A stretch of DNA of 64,000 bases from Planctomycetota bacterium (GTDB taxonomy: Bacteria; Planctomycetota; Planctomycetia; Pirellulales; Pirellulaceae): positions 162,086-226,085 of the forward strand of contig JABAAE010000008.1 of the NCBI GenBank assembly GCA_014238905.1, read 5' to 3'. The stretch's first letter is position 1, and every line of letters starts with the position of its first letter. Positions 48,282 through 51,105 of this stretch are shown piece by piece. The notes under the pieces are model-generated. The model worked only from the letters and a program-made list of their open reading frames with translations, was not told where the DNA came from and ran no database searches. The position numbers were made by a program, and so were the translations under genes.

Positions 48282-48310
48282 AAAAAAAACCCAGCTGATT
48301 AAATCAGCCG
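48282..48310 (-). terminator. Terminator-like hairpin directly upstream of the reverse transcriptase
   Basis: CGGCTGATT and AATCAGCTG pair (one G-U) and are followed by eight T on the minus strand, ending 14 bp before the RT start codon. It could close the upstream noncoding RNA or microprotein message, or act as an attenuator for RT. Confidence 0.65.
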
Positions 48311-48317
48311 AGGTCTC

Positions 48318-48516
48318 GTCTTGCACATTCCTGAATTGATTGTGTAACACACAATCGATTCGGAAGTTTCTACAAATCACTGATGATTCGCGGGCGACGA
48401 AACATCGCCCTGGTTAAGAAAACCACCAAGACAACCGCTAGGATAAAAAACATTCTTGGAGATTGTAAGTTTTCGTTGATTGCCATCAATTCCTTTTTTG
48501 TGACATAACGCAAGAC
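48318..48516 (-). ncRNA. Candidate retron msr-msd RNA
   Basis: The position just upstream of a retron RT is where the template RNA normally lies. GTCTTGC and GCAAGAC (48510-48516 with 48318-48324, extended by two G-U pairs) could form the a1/a2 stem. GAATTGAT and ATCAATTC (48485-48492 with 48333-48340) nest inside. Internal hairpins are GGGCGA/TCGCCC (48392-48410) and GATTGTGT/ACACAATC (48338-48356). Complementary 7-8 mers of this kind are expected by chance at low number, so boundaries are tentative. The region also encodes a membrane peptide. Confidence 0.33.
48370..48486 (-). CDS. Possible 38-residue single-span membrane peptide
   Basis: The ATG is preceded by AAGGA at five bases. The chain has a polar start (MAINENLQSPR), one hydrophobic span (FFILAVVLVVFL) and a basic tail (RRPRIISDL). 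It lies between the sulfatase-esterase gene and the RT. It overlaps the candidate retron RNA, and only one of the two readings may be right. No homologue is known to me. Confidence 0.4.
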   Translation of the reverse strand: MAINENLQSPRMFFILAVVLVVFLTRAMFRRPRIISDL

Positions 48517-48573: not shown

Positions 48574-50835
48574 TCAATTCTGGAGTTGAATCTTAAAAAA
48601 CCGGTCCGCCGATTCGACCATTTCATCAAACCAAATCTGTTTTCCAAGAAATGGATGGGGTGCCTGAGGGACAATCGTCAGGCCGGACTCGATACCCAAT
48701 TCTTCCAACCGATTTCGAAAACGATCCGCGCGTGTGCTAGGATCGTCTTTCTCGCCGCAAACAAACCAAAACGGTGGATCATCCCGATCTAGATGATAAA
48801 GCGGTGACGCGAGGCGATAATTCCCCAAACTGTCTTCCTGGGAACCGCCTAGGAACTGGCGCCAAATCTGCCCCTTGGCCTTATTGGAAGAGACCTCCCG
48901 GGTCCGCTGCGACAGCAAGTCGGTTTGGGCTCCCATTGGAACTGCGGCTTGGATCGCGCTACTAAATCGTTGATTCCCCCCTTCTCCCTCAAGGTCTTTC
49001 TGGCCAGCTGTCACTGCGAGCAGAGCGGTCAAATGCCCACCCGCTGAAAGGCCGATCGCACCGATTTGCTTTGGATTGATCCCAAAACGCTTGGCGTTTG
49101 CCCGCAGGAACCTGACCGCTGCTTTACAATCGTGAATCGCTGCCGGAAAGGGAGCTTCACCACTCAAGCGATACGAAATCGTGACGGCCACGTAACCACG
49201 TACTGCGAGTGCCTGCGCCACTTTGGTGTGGTTGCCCCGATGACCATTTGCCCATCCGCCGCCGTGAATACAGACGACCGCGGGCAACTCGCCCCAAATT
49301 TTCTGCGGGCGAAAAATATCCATTTCCAAGGTTCGATTTCCATAACGAGCATAGGTTACACCTAGTTTCGAAGCCAGGCTCGCTAGAGTCTCCTTTGGAA
49401 TTTCAGTCCGTCCATCCGAACGGACTGCCCGCGGAACTTCTCCGGCTGCACGAGCGTCGATACGCATTTCCTCCTGAAACAGGATCGCCATTCCGCGCAG
49501 CTTTCGAACGATTTCCCGGTTACGGACGCGAACGGATTCTCCAGGGTCCTTCTGGAGATCATACAGCTGAAGACTCGGGTTCAAGTAGAGCTTCCAATTT
49601 TTCCAACGAACAGCCGCGAGAGCCCCCTGGCTACCGTGATAAAAAAAAGCGTCATTGTATTGGTTACGTTGAATCAAATCGGCCCATTCCCCGGGTGGAT
49701 CCCATCGCCGCCGAAGTGGAACTGCCGCATTCAGCGATTTTTTCATTCCTGGCGGGGGCACGATCTCGGTTTCCCCTTTTAGCAACGGACTGACGTCTCG
49801 ACCATCAATCACTCGCCCCTTCGGCACCTCGATACCCGCAAATGTGGCAAGCGTCGGATACCAGTCCATGGCTCGAACGACGGCAGATGACTCCACTCCT
49901 CCCTGCAATCCAAGCCCCGGTCCCCAAGCGATCGCAGGGACACGAATACCGCCCTCGTACGTAGAGAGCTTACCTCCTCGAATCTTCTGTTGTGGCGTCC
50001 GCCCTGGCCCTCGGCCATTGTCAGAAGCATAGATGACAATTGTGTTGTTATCGATGTCCAACCGCTTCAACGTATCCAACAAACGACCGACGTGATGGTC
50101 TAATTCCTGAATGGCGTCGCCGTATTCTCCCCATTTCGAACTGCCCTTGAATTTCTCGCTCACGCCAAGCGGATTATGGAGCATCGTGTGCGGAAGGTAT
50201 AAGAAAAAAGGACCTTTGCTGTTCTTCTGGATAAACTCAATCGCTTCGTCAGTGTAGATTTCTGTCAACTCGGCGGGGTCGGCAGGACGCTTAACGACAT
50301 CACCGTTGCGAATCAGTGGAACCCCACCTCGATCCTCAAAATAGACGATTTCAACCGGGTCCAAATTGTGCAGCAAACCAAAGTAATGATCGAATCCTTG
50401 ATTGTGAGGCAAAAAGGGTTCGTGAAAACCAAGGTGCCACTTGCCAATACAGGCTGTGGCATAGCCATTTTCCTTGAACAACTCCGCCAGAGTCAATTCG
50501 TCCGAATGGATTCCTGTACGTGAATCGGCTCGATGAACCCAAGTTTGGTTTCCAACACGCCGCGGATAACAGCCAGTTAAGAGGCCCGCCCGAGACGGAC
50601 TGCAAATCGGGGCGGCGGCATAATAATCGGTAAATCGCAGCCCCTCTTGTGCCATCGCATCGATGCGCGGCGTTTTGATTTCTGTGGCACCGTAGCATCC
50701 AAGATCGTAATATCCCTGATCATCGATAAAGATGAAAACAATATTGGGCGGAGCGTCAGATCCAGCTTCCAACCATCCCGGATCGAACCAAAATAGCAAA
50801 GCCGTCAACAAAGTTATCCCAATACGGAAATCCAT
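48574..50835 (-). CDS. Fusion of secreted sulfatase and BD-FAE-like esterase
   Basis: 753 residues from the ATG at 50835 (AAAGGA precedes it); an upstream ATG at 50967 gives an unlikely leader. Signal peptide about 1-26. The first part is an S1 sulfatase: PNIVFIFIDDQGYYDLGCYG, Cys78 in CSPSR, GKWHLGFHEP and YASDNGRGPGR. From about residue 495 an alpha/beta hydrolase follows: HGGGW as oxyanion loop, GLSAGG with the nucleophile serine and a C-terminal PQAPHPFLG histidine. The hydrolase resembles acetyl-esterase/BD-FAE enzymes. A single chain that removes sulfate and acyl groups would suit a decorated polysaccharide. Confidence 0.93.
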   Translation of the reverse strand: MDFRIGITLLTALLFWFDPGWLEAGSDAPPNIVFIFIDDQGYYDLGCYGATEIKTPRIDAMAQEGLRFTDYYAAAPICSPSRAGLLTGCYPRRVGNQTWVHRADSRTGIHSDELTLAELFKENGYATACIGKWHLGFHEPFLPHNQGFDHYFGLLHNLDPVEIVYFEDRGGVPLIRNGDVVKRPADPAELTEIYTDEAIEFIQKNSKGPFFLYLPHTMLHNPLGVSEKFKGSSKWGEYGDAIQELDHHVGRLLDTLKRLDIDNNTIVIYASDNGRGPGRTPQQKIRGGKLSTYEGGIRVPAIAWGPGLGLQGGVESSAVVRAMDWYPTLATFAGIEVPKGRVIDGRDVSPLLKGETEIVPPPGMKKSLNAAVPLRRRWDPPGEWADLIQRNQYNDAFFYHGSQGALAAVRWKNWKLYLNPSLQLYDLQKDPGESVRVRNREIVRKLRGMAILFQEEMRIDARAAGEVPRAVRSDGRTEIPKETLASLASKLGVTYARYGNRTLEMDIFRPQKIWGELPAVVCIHGGGWANGHRGNHTKVAQALAVRGYVAVTISYRLSGEAPFPAAIHDCKAAVRFLRANAKRFGINPKQIGAIGLSAGGHLTALLAVTAGQKDLEGEGGNQRFSSAIQAAVPMGAQTDLLSQRTREVSSNKAKGQIWRQFLGGSQEDSLGNYRLASPLYHLDRDDPPFWFVCGEKDDPSTRADRFRNRLEELGIESGLTIVPQAPHPFLGKQIWFDEMVESADRFFKIQLQN

Positions 50836-51105
50836 TTTAGCGATCCTTTGAGGTTTGGTCGTGTTTTCGCAACTACCCAAAAACAGTTTTGAACAAAATC
50901 CAAACAGATTAAAAGCAAGAATCATCAGGAGCCGATTTACCGGCGACGCCTCTGCTGACAAAGCCATTTCAAGGTTTTAACATCCGAATAGGTTGAGGTC
51001 CATCTGCCGTGGCCCACCCCTTCGTACTCGGTATCCTTGGGAGAGCCTCTACCCTACCCTGTCCTGTCCTTCATGATTTGAGCCCTTCCCAAAAGCAATC
51101 GGAAT

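Follow-up and report, generated by a model that had tools for sequence, protein, structure and literature searches.

The window, a 64-kb stretch of planctomycetal DNA, carries on its minus strand a predicted msr-msd RNA gene (48316-48434), followed by an intrinsic terminator-like stem-loop and then by the gene encoding a retron reverse transcriptase (RT) (Table 1). Together, the structured RNA and the terminator span approximately 48434-48282. The genes flanking the retron encode a sulfatase/esterase, a DUF1579 protein, a permease and an amidase and are metabolic or housekeeping in type; the one located directly upstream (48574-50967, minus strand) is a 797-aa ORF in which a sulfatase is fused to a BD-FAE/alpha-beta hydrolase domain.

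Table 1. Features of the retron locus in the window, in the order in which they are read on the minus strand
Feature	Coordinates	Strand	Basis and remarks
38-codon ORF MAINENLQSPRMFFILAVVLVVFLTRAMFRRPRIISDL, judged spurious	48370..48486	-	frame test, promoter position, no family match
-35-like hexamer CTTACA of the RNA promoter, 18-nt spacer	48464..48469	-	weak copy, 4/6; assigned by position
-10-like hexamer TATCCT	48440..48445	-	position of the conserved -10-like hexamers in homologues
a1 inverted repeat TTGTCTTG, predicted 5' end of msr	48427..48434	-	pairs with a2; 6/8 pairs changed on both sides
GG at the a1 end, containing the candidate guanosine for priming (2' branch), most probably 48426	48426..48427	-	both G columns invariant, 28/28
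msr stem-loop 1, TGGTT/AACCA	48411..48425	-	fold; homologous stem with 4/4 pairs changed on both sides
msr stem-loop 2, GGGCGATG-TTT-CGTCGCCC, 8-bp stem, UUU loop	48392..48410	-	99.1% of cells paired, compensatory changes
msr stem-loop 3, GCGAATCA/TGATTTGT	48372..48391	-	predicted fold of the window
msd, imperfect 18-bp hairpin, predicted msDNA template	48325..48367	-	fold; placed between msr and a2
a2 inverted repeat CAAGACGA	48316..48323	-	covaries with a1
Intrinsic terminator-like stem-loop with T-tract	48282..48312	-	terminator-like stems at the same place in many homologues
Retron reverse transcriptase, 297 aa	47374..48267	-	NARSH (= NAXXH), YADD, VTG; retron RT models

The RT, present as a single copy in the genome, contains region X (NARSH), region Y (VTG) and the YADD core, the motifs by which retron RTs are defined (NAXXH, VTG and YADD; PMC6868368). 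The PADLOC retron RT models lead among its matches; the best of them, RT_XIII (232 bits), scores only 17 bits above type III-A, and the RT was not assigned to type XIII. This model also matches all 11 aligned relatives, and no PADLOC retron partner protein, of type XIII or otherwise, was detected among the flanking genes. By sequence profile as well as by predicted fold, the closest solved structure is the RT of Retron-Eco1 (Ec86): a profile of the 11 relatives matched it in the PDB at 8e-63, and it was the best Foldseek match of the predicted RT structure (mean pLDDT 81), with about 28% identity in the fold alignment.

Conserved RNA structure and its distribution

The upstream regions of homologous RTs share a motif composed of (G)NCUUGG-YGG, stem-loop 1, a stem-loop 2 of the form GG(N)NGAUGUUUCGUC(N)NCC, then stem-loop 3 and msd, both variable, and finally GCAAGNC. 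In the window the stretch upstream of the RT, taken as a whole, folds with an energy of -88.5 kcal/mol, compared to -64.1 kcal/mol in shuffles (z -4.8; equalled by 0/200 shuffles), and the hairpins and the terminator-like stem described previously from the sequence are present. An analysis of covariance over homologous upstream regions, which the earlier note had proposed as a check, was performed on an alignment of 28 sequences and revealed strong covariation in the a1/a2 helix, stem-loop 1 and stem-loop 2. In this alignment 95.2% of the cells were paired, compensatory changes occurred in 14 of 20 pairs, and cells with double changes amounted to 83 vs 23.7 in shuffles (0/500), while sliding the partners by 1-3 columns reduced pairing to 28-55%. 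RNAalifold, run unaided on the same sequences, returned exactly these three helices. Likewise, a script that started from a 5' arm with the conserved G as its last base and searched for any complementary arm downstream located the latter at the same place in nearly every homologue, with co-varying bases (GTCTTG/CAAGAC, GCCTTG/CAAGGC, GCTTTG/CAAAGC, GACTCTG/CAGAGTC, GCATTG/CAATGC and ACCCTG/CAGGGT). The stem of stem-loop 1 in the window is off by one base in register relative to the homologous stem. At the site of stem-loop 3 a hairpin of the GGTC..GGACC type is visible in many homologues, with variable sequence, and the msd sequence also varies across homologues.

Two long-range pairings had been put forward for this stretch, 48516-48510/48324-48318 (GTCTTGC/GCAAGAC) and 48492-48485/48340-48333 (GAATTGAT/ATCAATTC). 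The complementarities are exact, but such matches arise at near chance frequency: five complementary 7-mers were observed vs 3.0 expected, and 85% of simulations yielded one or more; for 8-mers the figures were two vs 0.8 and 45%. Neither pairing corresponds to a conserved helix. As near-chance and unconserved pairings both were discarded, and the second is in addition in competition with the msd hairpin. The conserved enclosing helix retains the 3' arm of the former proposal, CAAGACGA (48323-48316), and pairs it with another 5' arm, TTGTCTTG (48434-48427).

A covariance model constructed from 23 homologues, from which the window and its four closest relatives had been left out, recovered the window at 48436-48315 (49.7 bits, E 2.1e-8), the sole match in the 64 kb and in the whole genome, as well as the held-out relatives (L002-L005). 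When this model was run, blind to RTs, over 392 genomes of the phylum, matches were obtained in 27, and in every one of them a retron RT encoded on the strand of the best match lay 48-503 nt downstream of it. A tree of 96 retron RTs grouped the 58 that carry the RNA (five of which rest on a weaker or by-eye RNA match) in one clade of 58 rows with support 99/93, and the presence of the RNA required 2 label changes vs 31.7 in shuffles; the model had no match to the RNA in the loci of the 38 RTs outside that clade. The clade is almost wholly planctomycetal, and one deltaproteobacterial MAG (L052) carries the RNA family. Among the Rfam (15) families, there was no match at the gathering threshold, nor a meaningful weaker one, in the window or in five homologous loci.

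Upstream of a1, TTGAC was found 36-45 nt before the end of this arm in 26/56 homologues (0-1 at other offsets) and -10-like hexamers 16-24 nt before it in 19/56 (0-5 elsewhere); both boxes with proper spacing were present in 31/56 homologues vs 0-2 in control windows. This pattern suggests that a conserved sigma-70-like promoter sets the 5' end of the RNA at a1. The boxes of the window (CTTACA and TATCCT) are a weak match at the right place, and an alternative promoter retrieved in the scan (48489-48462) would also initiate transcription downstream of the ATG of the 38-codon ORF.

Retron reading and alternatives

Sequence comparison shows a conserved RNA with an a1/a2 closing helix, stem-loops and an msd hairpin, constantly located ahead of RTs of a single clade. 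The favoured reading (probability about 0.95) is that this stretch is a retron's msr-msd RNA gene and that the RT gene following it belongs to the same retron, a call well supported by covariation, the independent model match, linkage to the RT and clade specificity, which bear out the msr-msd option of the earlier note. In agreement with the retron organisation, msr precedes msd upstream of the RT and the RNA is closed by a covarying a1/a2 of 8 bp, at the short end of the range known for retrons (approximately 8-30 nt). As regards the msr hairpins (one to three in retrons, with 7-10 bp and loops of 3-10 nt), stem-loop 2 (8 bp, UUU loop) and stem-loop 3 (8 bp, 4-nt loop) fall within these values and stem-loop 1 has only 5 bp; the long imperfect hairpin typical of msd corresponds to the 18-bp hairpin of the predicted fold. 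Retron-Eco1 shares with this locus a1/a2, the 5'-to-3' order msr, msd and RT, and an RT with NAXXH, YADD and VTG, and its RT-binding stem-loop (PMC6868368) equals stem-loop 2 in size and loop. It differs from the window, which has no linked effector gene, a priming context of UUGG instead of the AGC type and a short msd. The context UUGGYGG places the invariant GG at the right position but is outside those listed for validated retrons (TAGC, CAGA, CAGC, GAGC and ACGC).

Based on validated retrons (PMC6868368, PMC8989520, PMC12887533), a mechanism can be proposed in which a sigma-70-type promoter would start the RNA at a1 and the RT would bind the UUU-loop stem, the presumed recognition element by analogy. 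For priming, the RT would then use the 2'-OH of the invariant guanosine adjacent to a1 (48426), the role attributed to the guanosine at this position in validated retrons (PMC6868368, PMC8989520), and, starting beside a2, it would copy some 45 nt of the msd, after which host RNase H would remove the template to leave a short RNA-linked msDNA of about 45 nt. The resulting RNA-RT-msDNA complex probably serves in phage defence, as other retrons do, a role assigned by analogy because no effector gene is linked.

Two other readings were considered. A leader or attenuator of the riboswitch kind, which would regulate the RT mRNA and not act as template of the RT, would be in line with an RNA directly upstream of the RT and with the terminator between them; yet it is extremely improbable considering that a1/a2, the UUU-loop stem and the invariant G fit the msr-msd organisation, that msr is conserved while msd varies freely, that the RNA is confined to a single retron RT clade and occurs in tandem copies before one RT, and that Rfam contains no match. 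The alternative that the retron has decayed, its RNA and RT being inactive and its effector lost, is unlikely, even if it would account for the missing effector, the weak promoter and an RNA score (49.7 bits) under that of nearly all relatives (mostly 50-94). Against it, the RT is intact in its YADD, NAXXH and VTG motifs, the RNA helices are still paired via compensatory changes and the clade as a whole lacks, as a rule, a linked effector.

The 38-codon ORF noted earlier within the same bases exists as described, with its ATG and a GGA-type ribosome-binding site, and had been taken as a possible tiny membrane toxin, or as toxin and RNA at once. A single-span membrane toxin or retron effector held in check by the RNA would benefit from that good ribosome-binding site and from a clearly hydrophobic span (maximum Kyte-Doolittle 2.19), and a membrane module would suit a clade in which related RTs bear N-terminal transmembrane segments. 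Nevertheless, conservation of the frame among homologues, the test named for it, was absent: ORFs of 30 or more codons run through a1 in 30, 31 and 22 of 55 homologues in the three frames, ORFs with ATG in 11, 13 and 11, and an ATG ORF reaching 30 codons in the frame concerned is absent from all four closest relatives. The hydrophobic stretch VVLVVFL is the conserved RNA motif GTTGTCTTGGTGGTTTTCTT read as codons, and since another 29 open codons precede the ATG, the openness of the frame is nothing special. Because the promoter would place the 5' end of the RNA at a1, the ATG (48486), some 50 nt upstream of the predicted start, would lie outside the RNA. No family match was found for the 38-residue peptide, nor a conserved small membrane ORF as in type I toxin-antitoxin systems, neither frame nor peptide being conserved in homologues. 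On the basis of the frame test and the promoter position the ORF was ruled out as a gene; a toxin sharing its bases with the RNA is very improbable, and the membrane peptide is very probably an accidental reading frame.

Effector question and variants in the clade

Returning to the retron reading, the effector may be unlinked, absent or, in relatives, the N-terminal membrane segment of the RT itself. The neighbouring genes were rejected for this role: clustering of ORFs over 44 loci disclosed no conserved neighbour next to the RT, and the downstream genes resemble unrelated housekeeping proteins. Retrons are known to include stand-alone cassettes of msr-msd and RT (PMC6868368). An N-terminal hydrophobic span, with a Kyte-Doolittle value of at least 1.6, occurs in 19/55 RTs of the clade vs 2/38 outside it. 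It may be speculated, with considerable doubt, that the clade consists of RNA and RT alone with UUGGYGG priming, that the effector function resides in the RT N-terminus and that the state of the msDNA controls a membrane-acting RT; this N-terminus would be a transmembrane segment in roughly one third of the members, the others having a short hydrophobic helix (MFQWLKEWLGDQLCEF in the window). The RT of the window has no transmembrane segment and, instead, a short N-terminal helix (residues 2-17) is predicted with low confidence. An amphipathic N-terminal helix was also considered as a feature of the clade (mean hydrophobic moment 0.43 vs 0.35 in shuffles) and rejected on the few significant cases (6/33 individually at p<0.05, that of the window not significant), and it is retained as a weak lead.

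One or two N-terminal transmembrane segments were predicted on the RTs of L009, L042, L045, L046, L049, L054, L232, L235, L238-L240, L243, L244, L246, L248, L253 and L254. In L008, L009, L011, L012, L014 and L015 the RT measures 470-580 aa and has a C-terminal domain, and most of these RTs also have the N-terminal hydrophobic span; the C-terminal domain, for which the three scanned (L008, L009 and L012) gave no Pfam match, is possibly a fused effector. The myxococcal retrons (Mxa1, Sau1) share with many members of the clade an N-terminal extension of the RT, but their RTs branch apart in the tree and, except for the deltaproteobacterial MAG L052, no instance of the RNA family was found there. 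A literature search on planctomycete or membrane-fused retrons found no paper on the subject.

In three loci two msr-msd copies stand in tandem before a single RT (L039:5561-5882; L232, G505:C212:13285-13651; L237, G472:C52:138234-138511), with msr 81-89% and msd only 39-54% identical, as though two distinct msDNA templates were used by the one RT. Besides, a short msd with a small end hairpin and a GATCGCATC or GTCGCAC-like loop is recurrent (L032, L035, L038, L040, L041, L043 and L050), which suggests a conserved short msDNA in a subset of the clade.

In sum, the stretch is read as an msr-msd of a retron, a kind already known, and its clade shows several unusual traits, including the priming context, the lack of linked effectors, the N-terminal spans and the tandem RNAs. 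The case also illustrates how a conserved RNA motif may give rise to an artefactual hydrophobic peptide. As compared with Rfam, from which it is missing, a covariance-supported msr-msd becomes available for a whole retron clade of the Planctomycetota, and the exact coordinates proposed for a1, a2, the priming G and msd allow the msDNA to be sought directly. Given a clade without linked effectors, often with a predicted membrane anchor fused to the RT, the role of a partnerless retron becomes testable.
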